Shown here in pieces: positions 1,627-38,008 of a DNA stretch of 64,000 nucleotides. Origin of the DNA: Haloplanus natans DSM 17983 (GTDB lineage Archaea; Halobacteriota; Halobacteria; Halobacteriales; Haloferacaceae); contig NZ_KE386573.1 in assembly GCF_000427685.1 (NCBI RefSeq), positions 2,588,938 to 2,652,937 on the forward strand. The letters run 5' to 3'. Every line of letters begins with the position of its first letter. The stretch's first letter is position 1. The translations under genes and the position numbers were made by a program. The notes under the pieces were generated by a model. The model was not told the DNA's origin. It made no database searches and saw nothing but the letters and a program-made list of their open reading frames with translations.

Positions 1627-3222
1627 TTAGACCCTGGCGAGTTGGATTCCGGACAGCCCGGCTAACCCGGCGAGACCTGCTGCCGCCAAGATTTCTCCGT
1701 AACCCAGCATCGACAAGCCAGTTCCTACGATACCAGTCATCAGGAATGCCGCTGGCATCCACGCCAACATCCGGACCACGCGAGAGCTCTCTGAGTCATG
1801 GTTCCACAGAATCAAACCAGGTGCCAAGAGGAACGCGGATCCGACCGCCAGCAACGGCAAGTCGTACAGCAGGCCTACCACCGAGACGAAGACACCCGAC
1901 AGAAGCGTGAACGGCATCGCCCGGACCTGATGAGAGACGTGGACTCCATTCTCCTGCTTCGGAGTCGTATGGAAGAACGCATCATCGCCTCGGACTATCT
2001 CCACGATCTTCTTCACGGCAGTAGGAGCCAAGCTGCAGTATACCGCTGTACTGACGGCTAAGAACTTCGCCAACTGCAACGGTTTGTCCCTCATATCGAT
2101 GAGGAACGAGAGGACAGGACTGACCAGGGTCGCCAACGTCATCGCGTAGAACCCGGCACTGAACTCGAGGTCCAAGCCGAGGCCGAATACGGCTGTCACA
2201 CCGAGAATATACGAGAGGAACAACGTGGACAACGGCAGATTCAACACCGGGAAGGCTACATCCAGTTTCTCAGTGACCGAGGCCTTGCTCTTCAGGAAAC
2301 GAGGCAGTTCCTCGACGATGTACTCTGTCGTCCCAGCGCTCCACTTGATGTGCCGCTTCCACATCGCATAGTAATCCTCCGGGAAGTCCTCGCCACAGAC
2401 GACATCGTCAGCAAACACTCCCTTGTATCCGTGTTCACGGATCCGGGTAGCAAACGCCAAGTCCTCAGACACCATCTCAGGGAAACCATCGATCTCTTCC
2501 CAGGCACTTCGTCGGAAAACGGTGCCGTGGCCGAGAAACATAACGAAGCCGTACCTGTTCCGCTGAGGCATATACCGGTCCCAGTGAATATCGATGCCTT
2601 TGCCGAGCAGCTGTGCGAACCGTGATTCCTGCTTGTTAGTGTCGTGGTTGGCTTGGACGAATCCTACATCAGGAGCGGAGAAGTAGCGGAGGATCTCTGA
2701 GAGAAACGTGTCTGGGAGTCTTTCGTCGCTGTCGACGACCGCGAAGTACTCGGCGTCGATATGTTCGACGGCGTGGTTCAACGCACCGGCTTTGAATCCT
2801 TCCCTGTTCTCTCTGCGGATAACCTCCACGTCACTGTACTGCTGGGCGAACTCGTCGACCTTGTCCCGAAACTCTTCCTCAGTGCTGTCGTCCAGGATGT
2901 ACAGAGGAGCGTCGAAGCCTTGCTGGATGCAGTCTCTCGCGGTGTCGACGTCGAAATCGTTGAACGTCGGAAGCAGGATCGCAGCATCCAATCTCTCCAC
3001 TTGTTTCGTGTCGAGTTTCTCTGGTGTGGTCCGTGGAAGGTAACCGAAGATCTGGACCACGATGTTGTAGATACCGTACAGCCAGAAAACCGAAATCGAT
3101 GCGAGCAGGAATCCGACAACAACCTTCCCCAGAAATCCGTTGATCGAACCGACAATCTGCAGTGCTTCACCACCGAAGAAAAGTATTGAACCAAGCCACG
3201 TAGAAAGAATCGTGGCGTACAT
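1627..3222 (-). CDS. Membrane-bound family 2 glycosyltransferase (cellulose-synthase-like)
   Basis: About 531 residues. Two N-terminal membrane helices (residues about 1-60) are followed by a GT-A catalytic domain and four to five C-terminal helices, the usual layout of processive GT2 enzymes. Visible motifs: LDDS near residue 112, the metal-binding type VVDSDERLP near 163, EDLAFATRIREHG near 250 (the ED acid/base motif), and a KRHIKW variant of the Q/RxxRW motif near 290. It should transfer a sugar from a nucleotide or lipid donor at the cytoplasmic face, either extending a polysaccharide or glycosylating envelope proteins. The nearby surface proteins are rich in N-glycosylation sequons, so they are possible targets. 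An ATG at 3222 is preferred over GTG 3225. Confidence 0.85.
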   Translation of the reverse strand: MYATILSTWLGSILFFGGEALQIVGSINGFLGKVVVGFLLASISVFWLYGIYNIVVQIFGYLPRTTPEKLDTKQVERLDAAILLPTFNDFDVDTARDCIQQGFDAPLYILDDSTEEEFRDKVDEFAQQYSDVEVIRRENREGFKAGALNHAVEHIDAEYFAVVDSDERLPDTFLSEILRYFSAPDVGFVQANHDTNKQESRFAQLLGKGIDIHWDRYMPQRNRYGFVMFLGHGTVFRRSAWEEIDGFPEMVSEDLAFATRIREHGYKGVFADDVVCGEDFPEDYYAMWKRHIKWSAGTTEYIVEELPRFLKSKASVTEKLDVAFPVLNLPLSTLFLSYILGVTAVFGLGLDLEFSAGFYAMTLATLVSPVLSFLIDMRDKPLQLAKFLAVSTAVYCSLAPTAVKKIVEIVRGDDAFFHTTPKQENGVHVSHQVRAMPFTLLSGVFVSVVGLLYDLPLLAVGSAFLLAPGLILWNHDSESSRVVRMLAWMPAAFLMTGIVGTGLSMLGYGEILAAAGLAGLAGLSGIQLARV

Positions 3223-3252
3223 CACCGGGCTTTTCGCCTGACTGATGACGTA

Positions 3253-5410: not shown

Positions 5411-7372
5411 TTAGAGGTTGATTTCAGGAGCACTCGCACTGAGATACAGATAACCCATCACAACCAAGCCCAGTACCGTGACCAAGAGGCCTAACGGATC
5501 TGTGACCAATTGATAGACCGCTGTTGCGATCATTCCTCCACCGAGAAGGCCTATCACCAGTCTAACGTGGGAATCCTTTACCGGGATGAACTCTGTCGCA
5601 AGTCCGTCTACAATTTTACCGAGCTTGACACCGACCAAGGCGAACCCGCCGAGGAACGCGATGAACGTTACAAACACCTGCAACCAGTTCAACGCATTCG
5701 CGTCACCGCTCCAGATATTCTCGAAAGCATTCAGAGGATTACTCAGTTGAGTACCGGTGATTGGGAGAGTGAACCGTTTACCGAACAGGCCTCCACCAGA
5801 TCCACCACCGGTACCTTCCTCCCTACAATCGTATTGGATATCGTTGTTGACGAAAACCGCCTTCAACTCTCCCGTACACGTATCCTGCTTCTGAATCTTG
5901 AGACCGTCAGGACAACTGTAGATGACGTCGTTCCCGTTCTTCTGCTTCACAATCTCCTTGCCCTGAGTACATTCAGACTGTTGCGTAGCCTCCACCGAGA
6001 CACTGGTCGAAACCTCTCGACCACTCCCCGTATCCTCTACAGTGATACTGCATCGACCTGTATACGAGGCCTGCTGCATACTCGTCGAAGTGAACGTAAC
6101 CCGGAAACTGTAGGACGCAGTCTCACCGGGAGCAACCCTTTTCGTATTCTGAAGAGCATCCGCCTGGAAGTACTGACTACAGCTGCCAGCACGGGCTGAG
6201 AAACTGCCTTCCGCCCCGCCCACGTTCTTCACGTCGACAGAGATCCTGCCGCTACTGAGCTCACCGAAACTGGCACCACTCGATGAAACAATCTTCGGCT
6301 TCCCAACCGGCTTCGAGACAGTGATGTACCCGTTCTCACCGGCATCAACATAGACATTGAACTCTGGGTAAGCCAATCGACTATCCATATCGGCCTTCAA
6401 TGCTCCACTCTGGAAGCTGGAATCCAAGACCTCAGCATTCGCCAACGGAGACTCACTGTACCTCTTCTGAGCGTTCTCGGCCTTTCCGTTCAACAGGCCT
6501 TCAATATAGCTTTCAGAATAGTCTCCGGACTTCCACTTATCGAGAAGCCTGTTCCCGTCGTTCTTGATGTAGTTCCAGTAGTTATCGTACCGTTGCTCAC
6601 TGATCACTCTCCAACCGCCCTCATAGTTGTTACCGTGGATGGCAAGTTCATCGTCGACAAGCGGAGGATTCTGACCTGTATCCAAGTTACCCTGCCATTT
6701 CACCTTGGCATACCGGCCAAGATTGGAGACAACACCTGATCCACCATCCCCATTTGTTATTATAGCAGTCTGCGGATTCTTATCGCCTGCTTGCAGCCTC
6801 CACTCGGTTCTGAAGATTTCATCCGGGGAGCCGATATCAGCTACATCTCCGTAGTACCCGTTCTTCCGCAGGCAGAAGGCCTGGTAATTGTAACTTCCTG
6901 TCCAGTAATCGTACCAGCTCTTGGCAGCGGCCTCGACCTTACTGGTTCTATCTCCGATCGCTACTCCGCCCTCAGTGAAGTCAGCACAGTTTGAGGTAAC
7001 CCAGTTCCATAGCTGGTCTTTCGTATCGAATGTCTTCTTCATCCCCTCCCAGCCGTAGATCTTCTTCAAACCGGTCTCCTGGAGCGGGTAGCGAGCGTAG
7101 GTGTTCTGGTGAGAAACACTCAAAGTCAAGTCTTCTTCCGCAGTAGCTCCGGTCTTGCTCTCAATCTCACTGGCACCGAGATGGACGTTAATCTTGTCAG
7201 TCGCAAAGTTCGAGACATAACCAGCCTGAAGAACTTCTCCGTCGAAGAACTCGCTGTTGCTCTTATACGAGACAGTATCCACCGAAGTAGTATCTGCTGC
7301 CGCAAATGCAGTGAACATGAGAAGGAAGAATGCCGCTACTGAGGCCTTCCAACAATTACCCACTCGTTTCAC
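5411..7372 (-). CDS. fsx1: Candidate archaeal fusexin (Fsx1), HAP2/GCS1-like membrane fusion protein
   Basis: 653 residues from GTG 7372 (GTG 7363, just after AGGTGA, is equally possible). The signal peptide covers residues 1-26 (FAAA-DT). The ectodomain of about 535 residues is beta-rich with Cys at 129, 167, 398 and 441. Residues about 152-180 are aromatic- and Gly-rich (WYDYWTGSYNYQAFCL), a plausible fusion-loop region. Residues about 360-462 look like an Ig-type domain III. A compact four-Cys module follows (468, 487, 499, 516), then a Gly-rich linker and three C-terminal membrane helices (about 563-585, 603-622, 625-645). This order (beta ectodomain, Ig-like domain III, Cys-rich domain IV, several C-terminal helices) is that described for Fsx1, reported from haloarchaeal integrated elements with integrase and type IV secretion genes. 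The known family drives cell-cell fusion. Fusion activity here is inference; an unrelated surface adhesin with a pore-like tail is the main alternative. Confidence 0.72.
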   Translation of the reverse strand: MKRVGNCWKASVAAFFLLMFTAFAAADTTSVDTVSYKSNSEFFDGEVLQAGYVSNFATDKINVHLGASEIESKTGATAEEDLTLSVSHQNTYARYPLQETGLKKIYGWEGMKKTFDTKDQLWNWVTSNCADFTEGGVAIGDRTSKVEAAAKSWYDYWTGSYNYQAFCLRKNGYYGDVADIGSPDEIFRTEWRLQAGDKNPQTAIITNGDGGSGVVSNLGRYAKVKWQGNLDTGQNPPLVDDELAIHGNNYEGGWRVISEQRYDNYWNYIKNDGNRLLDKWKSGDYSESYIEGLLNGKAENAQKRYSESPLANAEVLDSSFQSGALKADMDSRLAYPEFNVYVDAGENGYITVSKPVGKPKIVSSSGASFGELSSGRISVDVKNVGGAEGSFSARAGSCSQYFQADALQNTKRVAPGETASYSFRVTFTSTSMQQASYTGRCSITVEDTGSGREVSTSVSVEATQQSECTQGKEIVKQKNGNDVIYSCPDGLKIQKQDTCTGELKAVFVNNDIQYDCREEGTGGGSGGGLFGKRFTLPITGTQLSNPLNAFENIWSGDANALNWLQVFVTFIAFLGGFALVGVKLGKIVDGLATEFIPVKDSHVRLVIGLLGGGMIATAVYQLVTDPLGLLVTVLGLVVMGYLYLSASAPEINL

Positions 7373-7652
7373 CTATGCAGTTGGCCTCCTGGTACAGAGT
7401 ACCGTTGATAATTTTGAACGTGACGTTGGAAGGAATTGAGACACCTCTCTCAGAGGCGTAGTTCCGGAGATCTTGTTCGGAGTCGAATGTCTGGTTATTT
7501 GGCTGGACCTTATGCCAGCATCCATCTCCTGTACTAACTGAACTCAGTGGACCGAGATTTAGGGCAGAAGCGATTGCTAACGCTGCAATCAACAGGAATG
7601 CTGCTCCTGCGAATACGTTGAGTGCTGTCGATCCTTTTCGTCTACTATTAAT
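7356..7652 (-). CDS. Small membrane-anchored extracellular protein, non-canonical start
   Basis: The first TTG (7592) gives 78 residues that begin inside a hydrophobic stretch. In frame upstream lie a basic segment (SRRKGS) and the rest of the hydrophobic segment, making a proper signal anchor, back to a TAA at 7656-7658. No ATG, GTG or TTG lies in that extension. An ATT at 7652, five bases after GGTGAT, is the best start, giving 98 residues. The exported part (about 50 residues) has two Cys and two NxT sequons. The gene overlaps the fusexin start by 17 bases, so the two are probably translationally coupled, and this small protein could be a fusexin partner or chaperone. Confidence 0.6.
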   Translation of the reverse strand: MNSRRKGSTALNVFAGAAFLLIAALAIASALNLGPLSSVSTGDGCWHKVQPNNQTFDSEQDLRNYASERGVSIPSNVTFKIINGTLYQEANCIGETSG

Positions 7653-7658
7653 TTGTTA

Positions 7659-7952
7659 TCACCCTGCTTTGATGTCAATCATTTTCTTGACCGCTACTAA
7701 ACCGAATCCGACAAAGATACCGTTCGTTATCGCTGCGAACAGCCGCTCAAAGCCTGTGCTTGGACTTGGAACTGCGAAAAAGTAGAATCCGGATGCAGTC
7801 AAGACCAATGCACCTGTAACGTACAGACTCGGAATGAATGGTACTCGAGTCGGGACGCGGTCGATGCTCAACAGTGCTGCTACTACAAATGAAGCTGTCA
7901 CCATTAACTCTGGATGCTGGAAAGCCAACTGTATGATCGTGTCGAGTACCAC
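7659..7952 (-). CDS. Small three-helix membrane protein
   Basis: 97 residues with hydrophobic segments at about 13-30, 41-61 and 70-90, separated by short loops. It starts with GTG 7952, one base after the stop of the zinc-ribbon gene upstream, and its own TGA forms part of the GGTGAT Shine-Dalgarno of the next gene. The compact spacing marks one operon leading into the candidate fusexin gene. No family recognised. It could be a holin-like, pilin-assembly or fusexin accessory protein, which the sequence does not decide. Confidence 0.6.
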   Translation of the reverse strand: MVLDTIIQLAFQHPELMVTASFVVAALLSIDRVPTRVPFIPSLYVTGALVLTASGFYFFAVPSPSTGFERLFAAITNGIFVGFGLVAVKKMIDIKAG

Positions 7953-8171: not shown

Positions 8172-9509
8172 CTACCCGGTGTGCCGAACCAGGGGACTGT
8201 AAAACTTCACTACAGGACAATCCTCGACGTCGTCGTGCTTCTCCGGGTTCACGTACAAGAACTCGTACTGATTCAGGTCGTTGATCTTCTTACGCCACTT
8301 CTCCTTATCTCCCTGCCCGTACAGGTTAGTCGAGTTCACTGCCTTCCGCCAATCCACCGGATTCAGGCCTTCACCGATGAACATGTGCGTCGTATCCCCC
8401 ACGAAATCGTAGGGATCTGAGCTCTGCGGATACGGGAGTTTGGATGGGCGCTGTGTACTGAGGATAGTTGCTATATCTGCTTGCCTTCCAGCGATATCGA
8501 GGATCTTCTGGAAGTATTTCTTGACAAGGTTGCCTGTGTCTCGACCAGCTACCTCGTGGAACTCATCCCCATATAATATGAATGGACCTTCGATATTCCC
8601 TCTGCGGATCTCCTTGATGAAGTTCCTCATCAGGACAGCGACGTAGAACTGGAACTTCTCCTCATCACCGTAGGTATAGTTGTCGTAGTGCTTGAGACTG
8701 AGAGAGATGACCGCCCGCTTCTCCTCAAGGTCGTGATTGTTCAACTCGTGTTCTCCCTTGTCTTCTTTCCAGACAAACTCGTCGCAGTCATGGCACTCCC
8801 AGCACTCGATATAGTTGAACGGGTTCTTTCTCAGATTAGAGGCGAGTATCTTACTGTTCTCCAAGCTGTTCAGGGTCCTTTTGATAGGGCCTTTGAGATT
8901 ATTCGTGTACTCGATCTCGACATCATCAAGCTTGGATTTGAGCGAGATGAAGTTCTCGTCCTCGATGCTGAGATCTCCGAGCAAGTTGTCGAAGACCTGT
9001 TCCTGTGGTTCACTGTTGAAGTCGAGAAGAAACATCAGATCGGATTTAGTAATGTCCTCAAAACCGAGTGTGAACTGCTCGATGTACGATGGTTTGCCGT
9101 TCCGGTAGTCGTCTACAAGGAACTTTGGCTGGAACAGTTTTCGAGGTACACGGTGAGGTTCTTCACCGTCTATCAGGCCCATTGTTTCGATCATCTGCTT
9201 TGAGGCACCGCCTGCATAGGAGATCGACTGGAAGTCGTTCTTGACATCCGAGAAATGAACCGGTGTCCATCCATCATCGTAAGCTGTGGAGACAATCCTT
9301 TTCCCGGCAACCGTCTTTCCACGGCCTGTAGGAGCTACAAGCAGTATCCTCGTTGTATCCGTCAAAGAGATATTGACCGTGTCTCCAGATTCAACTTCGT
9401 AGGCGATGGGGAGACTGCCGTTGTAGTCGACGTCGATCTCTTCCTCTTCCTGACTGTACTTCCGGTACTTCGGGTCTCCTGCCTCAATCGCGTGCTCAAA
9501 TAGTCCGAC
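8172..9509 (-). CDS. HerA/FtsK-like P-loop ATPase, non-canonical start
   Basis: The ATPase has Walker A APTGRGKT and Walker B FILYGDEFHEV, with SKLPYPQSS-type sensor sequence after it. The middle region holds a Cys/His group (CWECHDCDE...HELNNH) that looks like an inserted zinc finger. The first TTG (9365) sits only nine residues before the P-loop beta strand. About 48 further residues of convincing coding sequence lie upstream in frame (EHAIEAGDPKYRKYSQ), back to the TGA of the preceding gene. That stretch has no ATG, GTG or TTG. A GTC at 9509, five bases after GGTGAT, fits the start pattern seen elsewhere in this element. It should be a DNA or protein translocation motor, working with the two-helix protein encoded just upstream. 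Confidence 0.8.
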   Translation of the reverse strand, partial: VGLFEHAIEAGDPKYRKYSQEEEEIDVDYNGSLPIAYEVESGDTVNISLTDTTRILLVAPTGRGKTVAGKRIVSTAYDDGWTPVHFSDVKNDFQSISYAGGASKQMIETMGLIDGEEPHRVPRKLFQPKFLVDDYRNGKPSYIEQFTLGFEDITKSDLMFLLDFNSEPQEQVFDNLLGDLSIEDENFISLKSKLDDVEIEYTNNLKGPIKRTLNSLENSKILASNLRKNPFNYIECWECHDCDEFVWKEDKGEHELNNHDLEEKRAVISLSLKHYDNYTYGDEEKFQFYVAVLMRNFIKEIRRGNIEGPFILYGDEFHEVAGRDTGNLVKKYFQKILDIAGRQADIATILSTQRPSKLPYPQSSDPYDFVGDTTHMFIGEGLNPVDWRKAVNSTNLYGQGDKEKWRKKINDLNQYEFLYVNPEKHDDVEDCPVVKFYSPLVRHTG

Positions 9510-14157: not shown

Positions 14158-14757
14158 CTATGTTGTTGAGTTCGTCAGGTTAGTAGCATTCCCTGGATCC
14201 ATCAACGGATTCAATCTCTCAAACTGAACCAGCTCCAAGACGTTCGTTAAGGCCTTCAGCGTCCCAACATCCGGAAGCCAGCCTGTTACCGCGAAGACGA
14301 TAGCGAAGTAATTCATACCGATCAGCCCCCAAACAAGAAGCGGAGAAACATCCGGGTCAAACCACGCAGCTACGATGTATCCTGCTTTGAAGTACCAGAG
14401 AACATGGGCAGCAGCGCCTACAGCCGTGATTAGCAACGTGAGATACTCCCATCCATGAGCCATCGGAACCTGCTGCAGAACCGAGATCACAGTCTGAATA
14501 CTCTCCCCAAGCTGCAACGCATACGAGACAACAACAGGTTTCACAGCCCCCGTTTGGATCGCTTCTCGAAGAGCATCCTTGTGTTCCCAGACAAGAACAG
14601 AGGCAAGCGTAAGCCAACTCCAGAAACCCATATTCGAAGAAAGCAACGTCCTAACCCGTGCAAAGGACTTGACGACAGCCAACTTCCCGACCTTGAGGAC
14701 CGTGAATAGGCCGTTCAGTAGCTTGTACAGAAGATAGACGATGCTTTTGGCTGCGAT
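14158..14757 (-). CDS. Polytopic membrane protein, probable ATC start
   Basis: The first TTG (14682) gives 174 residues. In frame upstream are 25 more natural residues (KSIVYLLYKLLNGLFT), back to the TGA of the zinc-ribbon gene, with no canonical start. An ATC at 14757, exactly five bases after AGGTGAC, fits the recurring pattern and gives 199 residues. There are four to five hydrophobic segments (about 5-25, 45-60, 95-118, 125-150), and the C-terminus has NxT/S sequons (GNATNLTNSTT), so the tail may be external. No family recognised. Confidence 0.6.
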   Translation of the reverse strand: MAAKSIVYLLYKLLNGLFTVLKVGKLAVVKSFARVRTLLSSNMGFWSWLTLASVLVWEHKDALREAIQTGAVKPVVVSYALQLGESIQTVISVLQQVPMAHGWEYLTLLITAVGAAAHVLWYFKAGYIVAAWFDPDVSPLLVWGLIGMNYFAIVFAVTGWLPDVGTLKALTNVLELVQFERLNPLMDPGNATNLTNSTT

Positions 14758-14763
14758 ACAGAG

Positions 14764-14898
14764 TCACCTGTAGATATAGCTGCAGACCGTACACTGGATG
14801 CGCTGGTTGCTGGACTGAAAATCTTCCATGGAGAGTCGGACGTCTTCATCACAGATCTTGCAGGGTCGGTAGATTATAGGATTTTGGTGAGGTATCAC
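14764..14898 (-). CDS. 44-residue zinc-ribbon protein
   Basis: It starts at GTG 14898 behind GTGAGG and ends with TGA inside AGGTGAC. Two CxxC pairs (CKIC at 13-16 and CTVC at 36-39) make a complete zinc ribbon. It begins a minus-strand operon and diverges from the coiled-coil gene at 14920. It is in the same frame as the following membrane protein, so occasional TGA read-through would give a fusion. Function unknown. Confidence 0.55.
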   Translation of the reverse strand: MIPHQNPIIYRPCKICDEDVRLSMEDFQSSNQRIQCTVCSYIYR

Positions 14899-14919
14899 AA
14901 TAATATTCCTCACGTATAA

Positions 14920-15423
14920 TTGAATCTTCAGCGCTTTTTAAAGCGTGTTGGTGGGTGGGTCGGCCTCAGCTTCTTAATTCCTACTTGGGTTATTCTCGTT
15001 ATGCCGGGCTATCTGGACTACGATCTTTCTGAGTCCGTCGATTACGAGATCTACGACAGTTCCTCTTGGAACGAGATCGACGGATTCCTCGAACAAAGCA
15101 TCCGCAACGAGAAGGAACGGTTGGAACAGCAACTGGAACAGATCTACCGGCAGCTCAACGAAAGGGAAGAGATCCACGAAGAGAAGATAGACTCTATTGA
15201 ATCTGAGATCTTCAGGCAGAAGGATCGGTTAGACTCTGCAGAGAGAAGACCTGGAAACGATGACGTGCAGGTTCGAGAAAGACTGAAAGAACTCTACCGA
15301 GAGAAACGGAAAGCGAAAGAAGCTGTGTGGGAGGACAAGCAGGATCTCCTACAGGAGAAACGGAGCCTGGTCCGAGAACTTCGAGAGCTCGAGGAAAGCC
15401 GGAGCTTAGAGGAACTTCTCTAA
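14920..15423 (+). CDS. Membrane-anchored coiled-coil protein
   Basis: 167 residues from TTG 14920. A hydrophobic segment (about residues 10-28) is followed by an acidic stretch and a long coiled coil (about 50-165) with strict heptad character (QLEQIYRQLNEREE, ELREL). A start at ATG 15001 would remove the helix but keep the coiled coil. I prefer TTG because KRVGG before the hydrophobic run makes a good anchor. It stands alone on the plus strand between two minus-strand operons. Function unknown. Confidence 0.55.
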   Translation: MNLQRFLKRVGGWVGLSFLIPTWVILVMPGYLDYDLSESVDYEIYDSSSWNEIDGFLEQSIRNEKERLEQQLEQIYRQLNEREEIHEEKIDSIESEIFRQKDRLDSAERRPGNDDVQVRERLKELYREKRKAKEAVWEDKQDLLQEKRSLVRELRELEESRSLEELL

Positions 15424-15498
15424 CGTTCCCTCTTCATCAGAAATCACTTCCCCTTTCTACCAGTTTGGCTGAGAGAGCCCCTTCCTCGAATTTTCGAT

Positions 15499-17148
15499 TC
15501 AAGGCAGGGGTAGTTCACACTCTAAATTATCAATCCGTTCCTCGATACTTGGATGTGCTTTTCGAATAGCGTAATTGCCGAAGAAAAGGTCAAAGTAGTT
15601 GTGAAGGCCGTCACCATTCGAGTACCCGCTTAGAGGAAGTAGACTGGTAGTTGTCTTTGGATCTCCCGGGTTCCCTCCGAACCGTTCAAGGGAAGCGATA
15701 ACAACCTCTTCGCTTACGATATCGGCAGCTCTCTTATCTGCCTGGAGTTCCCGATGCCTATAATTCACGAAACTGTAGAAGATATTTCTCCCGGTTAACG
15801 TAATCAGAGAGAGGATAGGAATATAGAAACTGAGAAAGGCCTCGCCGTTTCGGATATGAGCCTCTTCATGCGCAATTACAGCCTGAATAAGCGGTTTGTC
15901 GAGATCATTCAACGCATCCTCTGTGACAAAAATATAGTTCTTGAATCCTGTACTGATGCTGGCCGCCTGATAGCTGGAGTCTTTCGTTTTCCAGCTTCGT
16001 ATTTCGGCTTGTGGAGAACAAACATCGGACTCAGAATTTGAGTTGCGAAAAAGCCGGTATATCTTGGAGAAGTGAGCTATAGTTTGATAAAATATCCCTG
16101 CTGGAAAGTACAGGACGGGAAATATACTGGTTAGCATGGCTGCGGCAAGAAGAGGATCATGTACTAGGTTGGGCAAGATGTATCGCTGCAAGACTCGAAC
16201 CGCGGCGTACGTCAAGGTATAAAAGAGAACTGGGAAGAAACCGATAGCTAAGAACTGAGCTTTACGACTGCCTGCTGTCCTGTAATCTTCGATAAAATCG
16301 AAGTAATCATTGACCCCTTCCATTTTGATATAGATGACTAAAACCCACAAAACAAGGGCAGATGTGAGGAAAATCGCGATTCTTTGAGATAGAACGCCGA
16401 CCAAAATGTAGAGGCTCATTTGATTTTGAAGATTTATGATTATATCTGGACCAAAAGCAAAGTATCCTATCATCAGACCAGACGCAGTTACTGCAAAAAT
16501 TAATGGAGTGATCTGCCTGGGATTGCTCTGTGAGAAACTGTACTCAAATCTAAAGACAGAGAAAAATCTGTCAAATACTAATAAAATAAAGTTAAGAGCT
16601 ACAGTAACTAATAATACGGAGAAAAATAGGCCGTTTAGAGATTCATAGCCAGAACTGTTCGACATAAAGCATCCTACTAAGAGAATACTAGAAATTAGTG
16701 GAGTGAATATATACACTGTATGAAACTGTTCTAGATCTCTGAACTCACCTCTACCCGACAACAGGAGTGACTTCTGTCTTTCAGCACAGGTCACCCAGAG
16801 TAGAACCATAACTATAGACAATAATGAGAGCACCAAAGAAACCGGAGTTAGTTTAAAAGAAAATATTGTATAGCTTCCAAAGAATACAAGCGGGAGCATC
16901 CAGAGCAAGTGCCAAACAATAGATGTTGATATCTGCTCTTCGACAAGAAAATGCCCGTCACTGATTTTTATTTCAAAATCATATTTGAATCCTACCAAAC
17001 GGCCCCGAAAAGTCTGATCTATTGCGCTTAAAGAATCCCTATCTAGTTTAACGCCATGATCCTCTGCAGCAGACTCTAAAACCTCTAGAATATGCTCTCT
17101 TGAAATATCGTCCTTTACCTTCGTTCTCACTAACAGCTGGTCAAACAT
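15499..17148 (-). CDS. M48-family-like membrane metalloprotease
   Basis: 549 residues with about eight to nine membrane helices. The zinc motif HEEAH (HExxH) lies near residue 425, and a downstream glutamate motif ELQADKRA near 475 matches the third ligand of M48/HtpX peptidases (ExxxD). The N-terminal 70 residues form a soluble domain. HtpX/Ste24-type enzymes cut membrane or secreted proteins at the inner face. Here it could process surface proteins of the element or act in envelope stress. The preceding gene ends five bases upstream of its ATG, so the pair is an operon. Base composition is more AT-rich than its neighbours, suggesting a separate acquisition. Confidence 0.75.
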   Translation of the reverse strand: MFDQLLVRTKVKDDISREHILEVLESAAEDHGVKLDRDSLSAIDQTFRGRLVGFKYDFEIKISDGHFLVEEQISTSIVWHLLWMLPLVFFGSYTIFSFKLTPVSLVLSLLSIVMVLLWVTCAERQKSLLLSGRGEFRDLEQFHTVYIFTPLISSILLVGCFMSNSSGYESLNGLFFSVLLVTVALNFILLVFDRFFSVFRFEYSFSQSNPRQITPLIFAVTASGLMIGYFAFGPDIIINLQNQMSLYILVGVLSQRIAIFLTSALVLWVLVIYIKMEGVNDYFDFIEDYRTAGSRKAQFLAIGFFPVLFYTLTYAAVRVLQRYILPNLVHDPLLAAAMLTSIFPVLYFPAGIFYQTIAHFSKIYRLFRNSNSESDVCSPQAEIRSWKTKDSSYQAASISTGFKNYIFVTEDALNDLDKPLIQAVIAHEEAHIRNGEAFLSFYIPILSLITLTGRNIFYSFVNYRHRELQADKRAADIVSEEVVIASLERFGGNPGDPKTTTSLLPLSGYSNGDGLHNYFDLFFGNYAIRKAHPSIEERIDNLECELPLP

Positions 17149-17153
17149 TACCT

Positions 17154-17630
17154 CTAACTAAATCTTGGAACTCCGCTTAGATCACTATCATCAAACCGGT
17201 CACTGTATTGATTTTCCGTCAAGATATATGCCGACTTCTTATCTTCATTATTCATCCCCTTATGATACATAAAGTGCAACCAACCATCCTCAGGTAGATT
17301 AACTTTCTTCGATATCTCTGGTTGAGCCTTCGGGCTACCACGGCCTTCGTACCCATCAAATAACTTGGCAGGAATTACGCATAAGTAGCTGCTATCCCCT
17401 TTAGAGAACTTGGTAGATCCAACATATTCGTATTCTTCCTCTTCTAAGTGGTTCTTTGTAACTAACACTACTCCAGTCACAGAGTGATAGTACCAGTGCA
17501 CATCAAAACCCAACTCAAGAATACTTTCTTCTCGAAATAGACGATCGGGAATCCGGATCTGTTTACTCCCGTTATATTCCTGAACTTCAGCGATACCCGC
17601 ATGGGTCCAGAACCGGTCCGTCCCGCTCAT
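17154..17630 (-). CDS. Hypothetical protein paired with the M48-like protease
   Basis: 158 residues, soluble, with no signal peptide. The N-terminal 90 residues have an alternating beta pattern (KQIRIPDRLFREESIL, VHWYYHSVTGVVLVTKN) that recalls AbrB-like or SWIB-type small beta domains. It begins at ATG 17630, diverging from the pilin-like gene, and ends five bases before the protease ATG. Probably a regulator or partner of the protease. Low certainty. Confidence 0.55.
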   Translation of the reverse strand: MSGTDRFWTHAGIAEVQEYNGSKQIRIPDRLFREESILELGFDVHWYYHSVTGVVLVTKNHLEEEEYEYVGSTKFSKGDSSYLCVIPAKLFDGYEGRGSPKAQPEISKKVNLPEDGWLHFMYHKGMNNEDKKSAYILTENQYSDRFDDSDLSGVPRFS

Positions 17631-17787
17631 ATGTATGATCCTGAGCGGGGCCTCTTATTTAGTCCTGAATAAGAAACGTGAGATATCTTGTAGAATCTTT
17701 TATTTCAACAGACACTGTCATTACTGCCTCTTCTGCAGGATTACTGGAATATCAATCCTTCTGGGGTTCACCTACTCTACTGCAGTG

Positions 17788-18162
17788 ATGAAATCAAACC
17801 TGCACCAAGGCCTGAAATACGGGCTGAGTAAGGCCTTGCCGGCGATAATCGCACTGATACTTCTAACTGATCCTGTCGCCGCTCAAAGCGCTACCTCAGG
17901 ATGCACAATCCCGAGTTCCCTCCAACCCTTGTTTGACCTGTTGAGCACGCTGGAGACACTGGCGTTCGTCGCCGGCGTCTCCCTCGGCGTCGTCGGACTC
18001 TCCACAGCAGGCGTGATGATCGCAGGCCCGTTCGGAGAGGACTGGGTCCGCCGAGGAAAACAAATAGCGAAAAACACCGTCCTCGGCGTCATCATCCTCG
18101 CGTCCGCGAACATGGTCGTCGCCTTCCTCATCAGCCAACTCGGACCCAGCTTCTGCACCTAA
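17788..18162 (+). CDS. Pilin-like small membrane protein (VirB2/TrbC-like)
   Basis: 124 residues from ATG 17788: a signal peptide (residues about 1-30, ending PVAAQS), a short loop, then two membrane helices (about 55-80 and 95-115) with a basic loop between them (EDWVRRGKQIAKN). This is the layout of VirB2/TrbC-type pilins. It is the first gene of the plus-strand transfer operon, six bases before the VirB6-like gene. A TATA-like CTTTTATT lies near 17698. A frame open from 17635 is longer but begins in unlikely sequence. Confidence 0.65.
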   Translation: MKSNLHQGLKYGLSKALPAIIALILLTDPVAAQSATSGCTIPSSLQPLFDLLSTLETLAFVAGVSLGVVGLSTAGVMIAGPFGEDWVRRGKQIAKNTVLGVIILASANMVVAFLISQLGPSFCT

Positions 18163-18168
18163 AAGCCA

Positions 18169-19338
18169 ATGAAGAGAATACTACTCGCAGGCCTCGCAGT
18201 CATCGCCTGTATAGGCCTACTGTCAGCTCCGGCAGCAGCAAATCACCAAGAAACTACGGCGACGCCAAGTAACGGAAGCGGAGACCAAAGCGGAGAAGAC
18301 GATGAGCCGATCATCGATTTCAGCGGAGTCGTCGAGGCAATCAACGACCTGATTGAGGACTTCGAGAAGTTCACCGGCAGCTGGGACCAAACTCTGAAAG
18401 ACATCCTAATCGCCGTCCTCTTCCACCCGTTCAAACTCCTCGCCCAGCAGCTTCTGAACGCTCTCTCAACCATCCTGATGCACACGCCGGACGTCCACCC
18501 GAACCCTGCCATCGAACAAGTTCACAGCAGAGTCCTGCTCGTGACCTACCTGCTGTCAGGCCTCGGACTTACCGCGGCAGGCCTACTGTACATCACCGGG
18601 CCTCTGCTCGGAGTCTCGTACAACGAGGTTCGGATGATCATTCCGCGGCTTCTCGCCGCGTTGATCTTCTCCACCGTTTCCCTTCCGTTGCTTCAGTACG
18701 CTGTCGAACTGAGCAACGCCTTAGTCTACGCATTTTCCCCGGACCAATTGTGGATGAGTTTGACTCAGTTGGCAGGCCTGAGCACCGGCTTAGTGCTTGC
18801 TTGGGTTGTCAACGCTGCGTTGCTGCTCGTGGTCGTCGTGATGTTCATCATCAGGAACGTGTACCTGATGTTCGTTGCCGCAATCTCACCGCTGTTGGCC
18901 TTGGCCTGGAGTGTGCCGAAGGCGAAGCGGTACGCAGATTCGTTCATCGCTGGCTGGTGGACCGCACTGGCGATGGCACCCTTGGATATGCTCGTATTGA
19001 AGTTCAGCTTCGCAATGCTGCAGGGCAACGGAGCAAGCATCACTGCAAGCATCTCGAACTGGATCCTCGGTGTGGGAGCGTTCTCACTTCTAATCCTTGT
19101 CCCATACCAGCTCTACGGAGCTTCTCAAGCAGCTATCGGCCAGGCCTATGTCGTCAGTCAGGGAATCAAGAGCAGAGCGAAACAGGCCTACCGCATCCAA
19201 CAAGGCCGGGGAACGGGAGGAGAAACGGACTTCGACCTCTCAAATGATGAAGCTCGGCGTCTGAAGTCGTACAGACGGAAGAAGCGCCGGCAATCCTCTG
19301 ACAACGGCTTCCGCAGCAATTGGGGAGGTGGCGACTGA
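18169..19338 (+). CDS. VirB6/TrbL-like polytopic channel protein
   Basis: 389 residues. A signal peptide (ending APAAA-NH) precedes an acidic stretch (GDQSGEDDEPII) and six to seven membrane helices (about 80-330), ending in a basic cytoplasmic tail (SYRRKKRRQ). TrbL/VirB6 proteins form the inner-membrane DNA or protein channel of type IV secretion. The position between a pilin-like gene and a VirB4-like ATPase supports this. Its TGA overlaps the ATG of the ATPase gene. Confidence 0.7.
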   Translation: MKRILLAGLAVIACIGLLSAPAAANHQETTATPSNGSGDQSGEDDEPIIDFSGVVEAINDLIEDFEKFTGSWDQTLKDILIAVLFHPFKLLAQQLLNALSTILMHTPDVHPNPAIEQVHSRVLLVTYLLSGLGLTAAGLLYITGPLLGVSYNEVRMIIPRLLAALIFSTVSLPLLQYAVELSNALVYAFSPDQLWMSLTQLAGLSTGLVLAWVVNAALLLVVVVMFIIRNVYLMFVAAISPLLALAWSVPKAKRYADSFIAGWWTALAMAPLDMLVLKFSFAMLQGNGASITASISNWILGVGAFSLLILVPYQLYGASQAAIGQAYVVSQGIKSRAKQAYRIQQGRGTGGETDFDLSNDEARRLKSYRRKKRRQSSDNGFRSNWGGGD

Positions 19339-21848
19339 TGACTGAGAAGGTTCGGATGCCGGCGGACCTTGACCAAGTCACCTTGAAGCTGCTCGGAAAA
19401 CTGGACGCCAAAGATCTGGCAAGGCTCGGAATCCCCTCCGGGTCAGCCTTCAGTTACCTGTACCAAATCCCGAGTCCCTCCCTCACCGCATTCGCCGGCG
19501 CAGGAGCTGCAGTAGGTATCGGTGCGACCTGGGCACTCTGGAAGCCCTACGGACGCAGCCTCGACCAGAATCTGTACCAAGCCGCTCGATGGACACTGCA
19601 GAACAGAAATGGAGTTGAGACGCCGGAGATCGAGGACAACGTCCTGAAGACGGGCAGTTCCGTGGCCGCATTGATCGAAGTAGATCCCGTCAATATGGAG
19701 CTGAAATCCGGCGGCGAGAAAGCAGCACTCCACAAACTGTACCAAGAACTGCTGCAATCTGTCGACTACCCGGTCACGGTCTACAGCACCCAGCAGCCGT
19801 TCAGTTTCGCCCAGTACTTCGAGAACCTCGAAGACGGCGACGAACTCCAAGACGACTACCGAAGCCACTGCGAAGACTTAGTGGAAGACGGGAACAGCCG
19901 GACACGGCACTACCTCGAAGTTCGCGTCGACGACGGCGACCGCAGCGAACTGTCGAACCGTGTCGGAGAGATCCTGGAACACCTGACTTCGGGAGGCCTC
20001 ACCACGTACAGAGTAACCGAAGTCGACGACGTCGAAGACAGCCCCGAAATCAATCCCAGGTACATCCAACATCCCGAATCAGAGGAAAGAAGCTGTAGCA
20101 AGACACTGTACATTTCGGGCTACCCCGGAGACGTAGACTTCTCTTGGATTTCGCAGATCCTCCAAGTCGAGGGACTCATCGACGTCACTCAAACCATCTA
20201 TCCGAAGACCTCGGCAGATACTGTCTCCAAGCTGCAGAAACTGGAGAACAAGGCAGAAGCCGAGAACCAGTCCCTCGTCAGGAAAGGGTACGGCAGCAGC
20301 AGAAAACTGGAACGATTGCTCGACGACGTCGACTGGTTCCAGAACCTGCTGGCCGACCAAGAGGACCAACCTGTCAGGTACGGTTGCTACGTTACCGCCT
20401 ACGGGGAGAGCAAGAAGGAATGCGAAGCTGCGGTGAGGAAAGTAGAGAACCGGTTGAAGACCCTCGGTATCAACTACCGAGGTACTGCTCTTCGTACGGA
20501 TCAGGCCTACCAGTCAACGACGCCAGGGCTCAGAGACAAGCTGGAAGAGCGCCAACTGATGCCTGCGGGAAGCGCTGCTTCCGGCTTCCCATTCACACAG
20601 GCCTCGACCGTCGACGAGAACGGTGTCCTGTTCGGAGTCGATCAATCGACCGAGGCACCGGTTATCCTTGACCGGTTCAAGTGGAACGCGGGTCACGCAG
20701 TACTCGCTGGAGCTACTGGATCCGGGAAGAGCTTCCACTCCAAGCTATTGCTCCTTCGCTCAGCACAGGTCTACGACAACCTCGAGGTCAAGATCATCGA
20801 TCCGAAACCAGAGTACGGAGATCTGGAGGACTTCCTCGAAGAATACGCCTCAGTCACCCGGTTCGGACTTGAGGCGTCCATCCAGGATGACACTGAAGAA
20901 CTGATTCAGAGTGTGGAAGAGGCCTACAGCCAGGCTCAGGAAAGCGATGCGAAGACCATCGTCGTCATCGACGAAGCACACCGCCTGCTGCAGAATCAGG
21001 AAGGTGCTTCGGTCCTATCCACGCTGGTTCGTGAGGCTCGGTCGTCGAACACGGCAGTACAGCTGATCACGCAGACAATCAGTGACTTCTACCGGACGGA
21101 AGATGGAGAGGACATCCTGAAGAACATCCCCTGCAAGGTGCTGTTCGCACACGAAGACGCGGATGACAGGCCTGCACAGGCCTTCCAACTCTCCAACGTC
21201 GCAGAAACCCGGCTGTACAACTTGGCAAAAGGCGACCAAGACTCTACGGATTACAGCCAGGCAATCCTCAAAGTCAGCAACCAGTTCGAGTCCCGTGTCA
21301 ATGTGGAAGCCTCGGACGTTGAGGCTTCGATCATCGAACACGGAGAAATCCCCGAACAAACCAGAGAAAATACGGGCAGCATTGACCTCAGCTACAACGA
21401 GACAACCAGCGACGCCGATAATTCAAGCTTGGCTGAGAAAGCGAAGGCCTACATCAAGAATGTCCGTGAGAAGATCGAGAAGCTGTCACTGCCGAACTTC
21501 AATCTTCCAAAGCCTGGTCTACCCAGTTTCTCCCTGAGCAACAGCAGCTATCTCCGTTCCAGTAACGCTCGTAGCTGGAATAATCCCCTGCCGGACATTG
21601 AGGACGAAATCCCTTACCGCGGATACCTGAAGAAGGCCTGCTTTGCAACTGGGTTGTTCTTCGGGACGGGTCTCTTCGGTGCAATCCTTGTCAGTAGTGG
21701 ACGCGTCATCGTTGACACCCTCCAGCAGTTGGTCGGCTTCGGTTCAATGGTTCAAGGAGTACTGGAAGTAGTCTGCCCGCTGATCTTGCTGGGGGCTCTA
21801 TTCGGCCTCTCCGACCCCTACACTGCGATTCACGGGGATGATGCCTAA
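19338..21848 (+). CDS. virB4: VirB4-like type IV secretion ATPase
   Basis: 836 residues from ATG 19338, overlapping the previous stop and preceded by GGAGGTGG. Walker A GATGSGKS is at about residue 457 and Walker B TIVVIDEAH at about 540, followed by a VirB4-type Q-containing motif (TAVQLITQTISDF). The N-terminal 440 residues match the VirB4/TraC layout. Two hydrophobic segments near the N-terminus are weak, but the C-terminal 70 residues hold two clear membrane helices, unusual for VirB4. It powers pilus assembly and substrate transfer at the cytoplasmic membrane. Genes before and after are a VirB6-like channel and a TraD-like coupling protein. Confidence 0.85.
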   Translation: MTEKVRMPADLDQVTLKLLGKLDAKDLARLGIPSGSAFSYLYQIPSPSLTAFAGAGAAVGIGATWALWKPYGRSLDQNLYQAARWTLQNRNGVETPEIEDNVLKTGSSVAALIEVDPVNMELKSGGEKAALHKLYQELLQSVDYPVTVYSTQQPFSFAQYFENLEDGDELQDDYRSHCEDLVEDGNSRTRHYLEVRVDDGDRSELSNRVGEILEHLTSGGLTTYRVTEVDDVEDSPEINPRYIQHPESEERSCSKTLYISGYPGDVDFSWISQILQVEGLIDVTQTIYPKTSADTVSKLQKLENKAEAENQSLVRKGYGSSRKLERLLDDVDWFQNLLADQEDQPVRYGCYVTAYGESKKECEAAVRKVENRLKTLGINYRGTALRTDQAYQSTTPGLRDKLEERQLMPAGSAASGFPFTQASTVDENGVLFGVDQSTEAPVILDRFKWNAGHAVLAGATGSGKSFHSKLLLLRSAQVYDNLEVKIIDPKPEYGDLEDFLEEYASVTRFGLEASIQDDTEELIQSVEEAYSQAQESDAKTIVVIDEAHRLLQNQEGASVLSTLVREARSSNTAVQLITQTISDFYRTEDGEDILKNIPCKVLFAHEDADDRPAQAFQLSNVAETRLYNLAKGDQDSTDYSQAILKVSNQFESRVNVEASDVEASIIEHGEIPEQTRENTGSIDLSYNETTSDADNSSLAEKAKAYIKNVREKIEKLSLPNFNLPKPGLPSFSLSNSSYLRSSNARSWNNPLPDIEDEIPYRGYLKKACFATGLFFGTGLFGAILVSSGRVIVDTLQQLVGFGSMVQGVLEVVCPLILLGALFGLSDPYTAIHGDDA

Positions 21849-22825
21849 TGAGTCTTCGAAACCGTATCTACCAAGACCACATCACAGTCACGGAGGAGCA
21901 AGCACAGAGACTGAGCTACAGCACTGGGACGTGGTACGACATCGAGGTCAGACCTCCGAAGAACAAGGACGTCCCTACAACGCTGCGAGAGTTCGCCGCC
22001 GGAATCAGAGAACTACAGACAAAGTGGCTGAAAATTCGGAACGCCTCACCGACCATCGCGTTCGAAATCCGGAGGCATACTCCTGACAAGCTCACGTTCC
22101 AGTTCTCCACACCCACAAAGAGACTGGAGCGAAAAGTCCGGACACAGCTCTCAAATCAAGTTCCAGGAGTGGAGTTCGGAGACGGTGTCGAAGGCCTACC
22201 AGTAGGAGAAGAATCCACAGCAGGAGGAGGCTTCCTCACCGCAGGAAGACGGGACTGGTACCCATTCAGGACGGACTTCGACGAGCCACCAGTCAACTCG
22301 CTGGTCTCGACGTTCCACCGCCACGCGATGCAGAACACCAGTTTCGTCGTCCAAGTCCTGTTCAAGCCGGTTGTCGGAGAACGAGTCCAACGCTGGCTGT
22401 GGAAGAAACAGGCCTACAAACAGATCCAGTATCTGAAGAAGGAGAAAGAACAGCTCTGGGGAAGTCGCTCTCCAACGAAACGGGAGAAACGGCAGGCCGA
22501 CAGCATCGAAGCCAAGGCCGGGAACAGCAGGTTCCACACCACGATACGGTTCGCCGTCATCGGTGCAGACGAATACACTAAGAGCCGAGTCAAGGAACTC
22601 GCAGGAGCATACAACACCTACGAGAACCCGGAAACCGGCCAGTACCTCGACACCGTCACCGTTGAGGCCTTGAGAGAGCAGAGGATCTTCGACTTCCTCC
22701 AAGCAGTAGCCGACAGAAGCTACAGTGGTTGGGGCCGACGTTTCCAATCCTCACTTGACGAGCTTGCTGCATTCGTATCGCTTCCCAGCAACAGCCGCGA
22801 GAACATCCAATTCGCCCAGCCATGA
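21848..22825 (+). CDS. Transfer-module accessory protein, N-terminal half of a split HerA/TraD-type protein
   Basis: 325 residues. It overlaps the VirB4-like gene (TAATG) and the coupling ATPase gene (ATGA), so the three are translationally coupled. It is soluble with alternating alpha/beta and a Lys/Arg-rich stretch at about 195-225. No P-loop is visible. In archaeal and Gram-positive systems the N-terminal domain of TraD-type proteins can be of this type, so this may be a separately encoded partner of the coupling protein. I infer that from position and size only. Confidence 0.55.
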   Translation: MSLRNRIYQDHITVTEEQAQRLSYSTGTWYDIEVRPPKNKDVPTTLREFAAGIRELQTKWLKIRNASPTIAFEIRRHTPDKLTFQFSTPTKRLERKVRTQLSNQVPGVEFGDGVEGLPVGEESTAGGGFLTAGRRDWYPFRTDFDEPPVNSLVSTFHRHAMQNTSFVVQVLFKPVVGERVQRWLWKKQAYKQIQYLKKEKEQLWGSRSPTKREKRQADSIEAKAGNSRFHTTIRFAVIGADEYTKSRVKELAGAYNTYENPETGQYLDTVTVEALREQRIFDFLQAVADRSYSGWGRRFQSSLDELAAFVSLPSNSRENIQFAQP

Positions 22826-24744
22826 ATCCCGAAGAAGTCCAAAACCTGATCGAGAGCACCGAGAACCTGAGCACGACGTACCTCGGCAGCCGTGAAAGCG
22901 ATCTCGGCGTCGAGGAAAACATCGGCCTCAGCGACGACAAACGCCTAACACACGTCCTAAACGTCGGACCGACCGGCTACGGGAAGAGCCAGATGATGAC
23001 GCACGTCGCGTTACAGGACGCCGAGAAAGACCACGGCCTCGCCATCATCAATCCGAAAGGCGACCTGATAGACGAGTTCCTCGCCAAGCTGCCGGAAGAC
23101 CGTGAAGACGACGTCATCTACATCAATCCAGCGCATGATCCAGTGACGCCGATCAACGTCCTCGATCCCTACGTCTCCGAGGAAATGTCTGAGGCACAAA
23201 AGGAGAACCAGAAGGAGATAATCGTCTCCGACCTCATCGACCTCTTCAAACGCCAGTCAGAGAACTGGGGCGACCAGTTCGGCCGCGTTCTCGAAACCCT
23301 GCTCCGGGCACACCTCGACCTCAACATCAAGAAAGACGCCGGAAACTCTCTGCTCGATGTCTTCCGCTGCGTCGTCAACCAAGACAGCCTCACAGAACTC
23401 ATCGACCAGACGGAGGACGAAATCATCCGAGAACAACTGGTCCGAGTCAAAGAAGACATGACCAGCTACGAGATGGAGCCCTTGCAGCGACGGCTGAACG
23501 ACTTCGTGATGAACCCGACCATCCGCAGGGTTATCGGCCCCGAAGAATCCGGAGTCGACTTCCGCGAAGCCGTGAACAACGGGAAGATCGTCCTGGTCGA
23601 TATCCAGAAGGGTGAGGTCGGGGATACTGTCTCGCAGTTGGTCGGCAGCATCGTGATAACGAAGATCTGGGCAGCTGCTCAGAGCCGTGTCACACAGCCC
23701 GTAGAGGAGAGGACGCCATTCCTTCTCTACGTCGACGAGCTGCAGAACTTCGGCGGTGAAGGAAGCAACTTCACGAAAATCCTCTCCGAAGCCCGTGAAT
23801 ACCGTCTCGGCTGCTGGCTCGCCACGCAGTATCTCCATCAACTGGCTACAGATATGAGGCGTGCAGTCACCAACAACTGCCGTACCAAGATCGCCTTCAA
23901 TCCGTCTGGTAGCGAGGACGAAACTCGGATAGCGGGGATGTTCCAAGATCTCTCGAAACAACGCCTGAAGAGCCTGGGTAAGTACCGTGCTGCGGTGCAG
24001 AAACCAAGCGAGAGAAGTCATAACTCCGCTACCTTGTTCGACACCTATCCACCGTGGGAAGGAGATTACAGCGACGTCGACAACCTCAAAGAACAGGGAA
24101 CGGTCGCCACATCTCAGGGAACTTCTCAGACGAAGGCTTCGCAGAGTCTCGGGAAGGGCAACAACGCGGGAGGAAACAAGCACCGCGAGCTCCTCGCCCA
24201 GGCGAAGAAGCAGTTGGAAGCTCGTGGTTTCCAGGTCAACCTGCTGTACCAGGATACTGGAGATGACAAGCCGGACGGCCACGTCCACCTACCGGACGGA
24301 GATATCGCACACCTCGAAGCAGAACACTCGACTCTGGCCCGCCCGGTCAAGGTCCTCCGCAACCTGAAAAGGGCTGTTGAAGACGACCGTGAGGTATTCT
24401 ACGTCGTCGAGGAAGGAAAGGCTGCCAAGCTACAGAACATCGTCGACGATCCGAAGAACCGCCGTGGAACTGAATACGAGGATACCGAAGGCAGCTACAG
24501 CTACTACACCGATGAGGACGGTGAGGCATTCACCGAGTTCGAAGATCTCGAAGACGCTGAGTACCGTGTGATCGAAGTCATCGAAGGCGAACTTGAAGTC
24601 CACGACGAGAAAGTTGAGCCGGAGTGCCCGGCACTTGGAGAGAACACTGAGGAAGAGCTGGAGTCATTCTGCCTGCATCGTGAGGAAGACGGGTTCTGTA
24701 CTGAGCTTGAACAGCAGTGTGTCCTGCTCGAAGAAGGAGAATGA
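22822..24744 (+). CDS. VirD4/TraD-like coupling ATPase with nuclease-like C-terminal module
   Basis: 640 residues. Walker A GPTGYGKS is at 49-56, Walker B PFLLYVDELQNF at about 298-310, and ATQYL follows, as in type IV coupling proteins. The main ATPase fold ends near residue 420. After a Gln/Gly/Ser linker comes a module at about 455-540 (KPDGHVHLPDG...HLEAE) matching the D...E-x-E/K core of PD-(D/E)XK-fold proteins. The last 60 residues are very acidic with several Cys (EPECP, ESFCLH, EQQCV). It should pump DNA into the secretion channel. The ATG overlaps the stop of the accessory protein gene. Confidence 0.8.
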   Translation: MNPEEVQNLIESTENLSTTYLGSRESDLGVEENIGLSDDKRLTHVLNVGPTGYGKSQMMTHVALQDAEKDHGLAIINPKGDLIDEFLAKLPEDREDDVIYINPAHDPVTPINVLDPYVSEEMSEAQKENQKEIIVSDLIDLFKRQSENWGDQFGRVLETLLRAHLDLNIKKDAGNSLLDVFRCVVNQDSLTELIDQTEDEIIREQLVRVKEDMTSYEMEPLQRRLNDFVMNPTIRRVIGPEESGVDFREAVNNGKIVLVDIQKGEVGDTVSQLVGSIVITKIWAAAQSRVTQPVEERTPFLLYVDELQNFGGEGSNFTKILSEAREYRLGCWLATQYLHQLATDMRRAVTNNCRTKIAFNPSGSEDETRIAGMFQDLSKQRLKSLGKYRAAVQKPSERSHNSATLFDTYPPWEGDYSDVDNLKEQGTVATSQGTSQTKASQSLGKGNNAGGNKHRELLAQAKKQLEARGFQVNLLYQDTGDDKPDGHVHLPDGDIAHLEAEHSTLARPVKVLRNLKRAVEDDREVFYVVEEGKAAKLQNIVDDPKNRRGTEYEDTEGSYSYYTDEDGEAFTEFEDLEDAEYRVIEVIEGELEVHDEKVEPECPALGENTEEELESFCLHREEDGFCTELEQQCVLLEEGE

Positions 24745-27397: not shown

Positions 27398-27516
27398 GCA
27401 AATAATCTACAGAGAACCATCTCAAACCCCTCCATATCCAATGACACAACACATACAACAGCTAATCACGCACGCGCGTGAGTATAGAAAAATACCCCCC
27501 TCAGGTGATGAGCTCG

Positions 27517-37915: not shown

Positions 37916-37976
37916 ATTGTTTGTCGACCTCCGATATGCAAGGAGAAGAGCGAGATTGCTCCCTCGACCTCGGACA

Positions 37977-38008
37977 TGACACAAGTTAAGTGTCAATTCT
38001 TTTATGTC
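37977..38008 (-). promoter_or_regulatory. Integrase operon promoter with overlapping operator
   Basis: The minus strand has a TATA-like CATAAAAGA at 37999-38007. Directly downstream, between it and the expected transcript start near 37975, is the perfect inverted repeat TGACAC-N7-GTGTCA (37977-37995). An operator in this position would allow repression of the integrase operon by a dimeric regulator. Confidence 0.5.

Follow-up and report, generated by a model that had tools for sequence, protein, structure and literature searches.

HnFsx1 of Haloplanus natans is a Fusexin1 protein carried by a 103,595-bp element at sR-tMet and probably serves transfer of that element by cell fusion

Why should a mobile element in the chromosome of a haloarchaeon carry a gene for a cell-fusion protein, and what would fusion do for the element? 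These questions are raised by an ORF at positions 5411-7372 of a 64,000-nucleotide stretch (the window) of the Haloplanus natans DSM 17983 assembly (8 contigs, 3,797,935 bases), which the original prediction had taken to encode a fusexin. The ORF is real and has the features claimed for it, although it has to be read on the minus strand, stops being present throughout the plus strand. Its product is the published HnFsx1 of this strain, and the core finding is therefore already known: Moi et al. 2022 (PMC9259645) reported fsx1 in H. natans and cloned HnFsx1. The strain assignment agrees with the tRNA genes: a paper on archaeal tRNA clusters (PMC6333295) gives 401627-408099 for the cluster of H. 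natans DSM 17983 (3.8 Mb, ATYM01000003.1), and contig C1 of the present assembly (429,065 bases) has its cluster at 401627-408100. The protein and its mobile setting having been published, our additions are the sR-tMet integration site, the exact ends of the element together with its empty site, and a coupled companion. The fsx1 features in the window are as follows.

5411-7372, minus: fsx1 (HnFsx1), Fusexin1 cell-fusion protein of 653 aa (phmmer against 7P4L, structure matches, alignment A1)
6893-6910, minus: predicted Fsx1 fusion loop, 155-DYWTGS-160, flanked by Y154 and Y161 (phmmer alignment; position per PMC9259645)
5438-5683, minus: three C-terminal membrane helices of Fsx1, residues 564-645 (hydropathy, and helices in the model)

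A sequence search matches residues 32-528 directly to the Fusexin1 structure 7P4L with E=1.7e-89 (phmmer against all PDB sequences), the next match being a chance one. All eight disulfide cysteines of 7P4L are present in HnFsx1 (C129-C167, C398-C441, C468-C487 and C499-C516) and are invariant in the 7 of 7 Fsx1 proteins that we aligned, while Y154-DYWTGS-Y161 aligns with the published 7P4L fusion loop Y142-SVTSPV-Y149. The layout that had been read from the letters is borne out along the chain: a signal peptide (residues 7-25), a beta-rich ectodomain of ~500 residues with an aromatic and Gly-rich loop (S152-Y163) between C129 and C167, an Ig-like segment at about 358-465, the four-Cys module that is domain IV (C468, C487, C499, C516), a Gly-rich linker at about 520-530 and hydrophobic C-terminal helices at 564-582, 605-623 and 627-645 (hydropathy; helices also in the model).

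Among 392 genomes sampled in the order, six other haloarchaeal genomes hold an Fsx1 homologue (60, 38, 37, 34, 33 and 23% identity), three of the carriers being Haloferax sp. Q22, Natrinema altunense AJ2 and Natronosalvus hydrolyticus. The ORF is far from a chance one, because it matches 7P4L and is conserved at 33-60% in five genomes and at 23% in a sixth. This divergent 23% protein, from Natronosalvus hydrolyticus (L015:1187-3277, minus), keeps all eight cysteines; its gene, too, lies at sR-tMet, and it could be an addition to the published Fsx1 set. A profile search of 170 genomes of the family found no further Fsx1. In 16 other genomes (L113-L128) the Fsx1 profile is matched at the Ig-like domain III only, with E of 1e-7 to 1e-3, which is a trap for profile searches. 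No relative of fsx1 was found in IMG/VR, phage or PLSDB records, and a viral or plasmid origin of the gene was dropped on this ground.

In order to place the fold, the seven aligned sequences were used for an AlphaFold2 model, which has a mean pLDDT of 68.5 (70-90 over most of the ectodomain) and a pTM of 0.42. Its best solved match is Fsx1 (Foldseek E 2.7e-40; VIA Z 17.8) and HAP2 comes second, with the Arabidopsis, Chlamydomonas and Cyanidioschyzon proteins at VIA Z 12-13 and Foldseek E 2e-16 to 1e-12, followed by bunyavirus Gc, alphavirus E1 and EFF-1. The model matches 7P4L up to residue 519 in the class II layout of domains I, II and III plus domain IV, with uncertain packing of the domains, which is why the structure matches show a high rmsd. 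The original prediction had named best matches to unrelated adhesins only as an outcome that would refute it, and it is the class II fusogens that were found instead. A surface adhesin with Ig-like domains and no kinship to fusogens might have been suspected, since domain III alone resembles common Ig-like domains and many haloarchaeal surface proteins match just that part of the profile, but the match to 7P4L is full-length and comes with the eight cysteines, the predicted fusion loop and the three membrane helices. We give this alternative practically no credence; the 7P4L sequence match and the Foldseek and VIA matches refute it.

HnFsx1 and the crystallised metagenomic Fsx1 (7P4L, PMC9259645) are homologous over the whole ectodomain, with the same eight cysteines and domain IV, and both have three C-terminal membrane helices and are carried by integrated elements. 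They are nevertheless only ~35% identical, the predicted HnFsx1 fusion loop (DYWTGS) is richer in aromatics than that of 7P4L (SVTSPV), and the net charge of the HnFsx1 ectodomain is about -18 by a simple count compared with the reported -67. With HAP2/GCS1 (5OW3, 5MF1, 6E18, 7S0K) HnFsx1 has in common the class II fold of domains I-III, yet identity is 11-15%, domain IV is extra and there are three membrane helices rather than one. A Pfam search with Fsx1 returned no match and no HAP2 domain at E<=1. HnFsx1 is thus a member of Fusexin1 and, lacking the Pfam domain and the single membrane helix, not of HAP2/GCS1 proper.

The mobile setting claimed for fsx1 is proven by 16-bp att repeats and by an empty site in a sister species. 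GC falls from ~0.70 to 0.50 between window coordinates -65.6 kb and 38.0 kb, and exactly at both borders lies the 16-bp repeat TATGAGTGCCGAGGCC, which has only these two copies in the genome even when one mismatch is allowed. Of these, the left one (C7:2523370-2523385) lies 65.6 kb before the window starts, and the element of 103,595 bp spans C7:2523370-2626964, after which comes the second repeat. In the sister species (G007) the left and right flanks are contiguous and overlap by exactly 16 bp, the left flank aligning up to C7:2523385 with G007 position 2792431 and the side that begins at window position 38028 with G007 position 2792446. The neighbours that had been claimed, an integrase and type IV secretion genes, are likewise present in the element as a tyrosine integrase and VirB4-like and VirD4-like ATPases. 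The window holds the following further features, listed from left to right.

1-883, minus: N-terminal part of a giant secreted surface protein of 1379 aa, whose gene runs on to -3256 (L037:1081-5220, minus)
1627-3225, minus: membrane glycosyltransferase, family 2 (Pfam; the fsx1 element of N. altunense has a protein with 77% identity)
7356-7655 stop-to-stop, 99 codons, minus: companion, an N-terminal membrane helix and an ectodomain of ~55 residues with two Cys (conservation at fsx1 loci)
7659-7952, minus: small protein, predicted to cross the membrane with three helices, whose gene precedes the companion (found in Haloferax Q22 as well)
8172-9365, minus: HerA/DUF87-like ATPase, a weak assignment (Pfam below cut-off; conserved in 3 elements)
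14920-15423, plus: coiled-coil protein (relative in 7 of 7 fsx1 elements)
15499-17148, minus: M48 metalloprotease (Pfam PF01435, 1.4e-8)
17635-18162, plus: VirB2-like pilin (Pfam T4SS_pilin, 1.5e-4, just under cut-off)
19320-21848, plus: VirB4-like ATPase (Pfam AAA_10, CagE_TrbE_VirB)
22822-24744, plus: TraG/VirD4 coupling protein (Pfam TraG-D_C and TrwB)
27478-29772, plus: element-borne MCM replicative helicase (Pfam MCM, 1.3e-41)
31933-33924, plus: HerA-like ATPase (Pfam DUF87, 1.2e-4, just under cut-off; conserved in 4 elements)
36416-37402, minus: tyrosine integrase, 0.6 kb from the right element end (Pfam Phage_integrase, 1.3e-20)
37403-37996, minus: coiled-coil/ribbon-helix-like integrase partner, excisionase candidate (adjoins the integrase in four elements; weak NikA-like match)
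38028-38043, plus: attR, TATGAGTGCCGAGGCC, right element end (repeat copies at the GC borders, empty site)
38044-64000: host chromosome past the element, GC about 0.68 (GC, empty-site alignment)

With an integrase, attL and attR, an empty site and VirB2-, VirB4- and VirD4-like genes, the element is of the integrative conjugative type. No relaxase was recognised among the proteins searched, and no capsid or virion gene among the window proteins searched with Pfam. The M48 metalloprotease adjoins the secretion genes and could act on the cell envelope during mating.

The left border of the element is the 3' end of a gene for the box C/D sRNA sR-tMet (Rfam RF02163, 68.4 bits, E 2e-13, 72 of 72 model positions), which has 72 bases (C7:2523314-2523385) and ends at the left att. 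Because the 16-bp repeat is identical with the last 16 bases of this gene, sR-tMet stays whole when the element integrates, as happens at tRNA genes. The gene occurs once per genome in all nine genomes tested. Six of the seven fsx1 elements are at sR-tMet, namely those of H. natans, G027, N. altunense (G041), G153, Natronosalvus (G315; L034-L036 cover the named Haloferax, Natrinema and Natronosalvus elements) and Haloferax Q22. All but the last of these begin at the terminal base of sR-tMet; in Haloferax Q22, on another contig, the sR-tMet 3' end runs into the element-end sequence known from H. natans. The elements of G027 (97.0 kb), G041 (94.8 kb) and G153 (41.7 kb; 14 of 16 bases) likewise have a second core copy at their opposite GC border. 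The seventh fsx1 locus, G233:C1:90071-92026, belongs to an element elsewhere, ~26 kb from a tRNA-Arg gene whose 3' end was not found a second time in the region examined.

Two exact core copies occur in 16 of the 392 genomes, and fsx1 is present in 4 of these 16 versus 3 of the 376 others (Fisher p 6e-5). In five genomes without fsx1 (G081, G211, G227, G262, G367) the two copies form a clear pair but are only 2.4 to 13 kb apart, and sR-tMet may be a general integration hotspot. In the main text of the Fsx1 paper (PMC9259645) the words 'tRNA', 'snoRNA' and 'sRNA' are absent and 'attachment' appears once, in a reference title; 'sRNA' is also absent from a 2021 review of archaeal integrases. The same main text of Moi et al. 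2022 yielded no exact element ends with sR-tMet, no companion and no link to the giant surface protein. The sR-tMet site is likely to be new to the literature.

Beyond the site and fsx1, the elements differ by mosaic gene content, and those with two known ends measure 41.7 to 103.6 kb. The integrase family of the H. natans element is common to N. altunense, G027 and G153, and the gene lies within ~0.6 kb of the distal repeat in three of these four elements and ~7 kb from it in G153. H. natans shares VirB4 with Q22, N. altunense and G027, and VirD4 with Q22 and N. altunense; the impression from a first phmmer round that no others besides H. natans and Haloferax Q22 have a secretion system arose because the element ends were incomplete. 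No type IV secretion system was recognised in the 41.7-kb G153 element, and since the G233 fsx1 sits elsewhere, neither sR-tMet nor the secretion system is obligatory for fsx1 elements. The giant surface protein is found in 5 of the 7 elements, with homologues near fsx1 in four besides H. natans, its relatives having GLUG or Gly-rich domains; two large surface proteins of G233 (1095 and 2265 aa, with CARDB repeats in the first) do not cluster with those of the other elements. The coiled-coil protein at 14920-15423 matches its relatives least well in N. altunense (E 1.8e-6) and in G233 (E 2e-4), and in four fsx1 elements the gene is 0.1 to 1.2 kb from the sR-tMet end. At the DNA level the elements of H. 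natans and N. altunense share one 5.9-kb block with 85% identity, the other shared blocks being mostly at 64-78%. This block (window coordinates -25578 to -19719, L009 about 14422-20000, and G041:C1:535031-540894) encodes an N6-methylase/specificity fusion and a CARF-domain protein, and its identity suggests a more recent exchange of defence cargo.

Directly upstream of fsx1 lies the companion ORF, whose first listed start is a TTG at 7592 and which overlaps the fsx1 start by 17 nt. It is present in H. natans, Haloferax Q22, G027, G153 and G233, and its stop overlaps the fsx1 start in four of the five, with a 20-nt gap in G153; in G027 the overlap is 37 nt with the listed start, a GTGA being the likely real junction. 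No companion was found beside fsx1 in N. altunense, and in Natronosalvus the contig stops before the position where it would be expected. The ectodomain has a Cys near a conserved Trp and another near the C-terminus, W47, R64 and C93 are invariant (alignment A2), most members have a motif like F-[DE]-S-x-[EQ]-x-[FL]-R, and substitutions fall most often on third codon positions. Among the 392 genomes, full-length matches occur at the five fsx1 loci only (E 1e-40 to 9e-35), the next match (E 1e-4) covering a short motif. Weak matches elsewhere are to a short helix motif, in proteins that at the two loci inspected (L142, L145) look from their sequence like rhodanese-type sulfurtransferases, and were taken as chance. 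No significant PDB match was obtained for the ectodomain, which is predicted to form two hairpins and a helix.

Class II fusogens of viruses are paired with companion proteins, as in alphavirus E2-E1, bunyavirus Gn-Gc and flavivirus prM-E. Like these, the companion is a membrane protein encoded directly upstream of a class II fusogen; it differs from them in having only ~80-110 aa and in being a separate ORF rather than part of a polyprotein, and no similarity to the viral companions was detected in sequence or fold. By analogy, Fsx1 could be a two-protein fusogen whose translationally coupled companion escorts or restrains it as E2, Gn and prM do, and the pair would belong to large conjugative elements that, as a family, specialise in sR-tMet. 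We put this forward tentatively, as a possibility on the doubtful side.

As to what the element gains, we think that HnFsx1 is probably the class II fusogen through which its host fuses with another cell, passing element DNA. Published work showed that a homologous Fsx1 fuses BHK cells and that fusion is lost when the fusion loop is replaced (PMC9259645). We infer that the element most likely brings about fusion of its host with other cells as a means to spread or recombine. When the element is active, Fsx1 would be displayed on the cell surface, its aromatic loop Y154-DYWTGS-Y161 would enter a neighbouring membrane, and the trimer would fold back, so that the cells merge or a bridge opens. 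Element DNA, assisted by VirB4 and VirD4, would then reach the other cell and integrate at sR-tMet, leaving that gene undestroyed. As guesses, we would give the companion a probable role in escorting or restraining Fsx1, and the giant surface protein a probable one in adhesion.

Fusion in the published BHK assay was bilateral, in that Fsx1 was needed on both partners and cells without it fused poorly (PMC9259645), which sits awkwardly with an invasion of cells that lack the element. This same bilaterality speaks for supposing that Fsx1 acts chiefly between carriers, in a mating function that recombines element and host genome instead of spreading to naive cells. The strong mosaicism of the elements, seen in the 85% block beside other shared blocks of lower identity, points the same way, but mosaicism is common to all mobile elements and can be produced by co-residence, and we consider this alternative rather unlikely. 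Alternatively, Fsx1 might be carried on released vesicle-like or virus-like particles that contain element DNA and fuse with recipients. Class II fusogens are the class of enveloped viruses, the element has its own MCM, and one-sided entry would go well with spread to element-free cells. Against such particles stand the window proteins searched, among which no capsid or virion gene was recognised, the conjugative secretion set, the viral records without an Fsx1 relative and again the poor fusion with cells lacking Fsx1, which together make this explanation quite improbable. For the preferred reading of cell-cell fusion in the service of element transfer, the difficulty of bilaterality would be resolved by mating chiefly among carriers, by a companion or surface protein that alters the requirement, or by fusion from vesicles. 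Mosaicism across genera fits an exchange between elements, and does not prove the route.

Fusexins tie together gamete fusion, virus entry and archaeal gene exchange. Concrete handles that make Fsx1 biology testable are offered by the exact element ends, by sR-tMet as a target whose empty state is known, and by the coupled companion. If the companion is real, earlier assays with Fsx1 by itself may have captured no more than part of the machine, and if the two-protein reading is true, archaeal fusion could need the pair and not Fsx1 alone.
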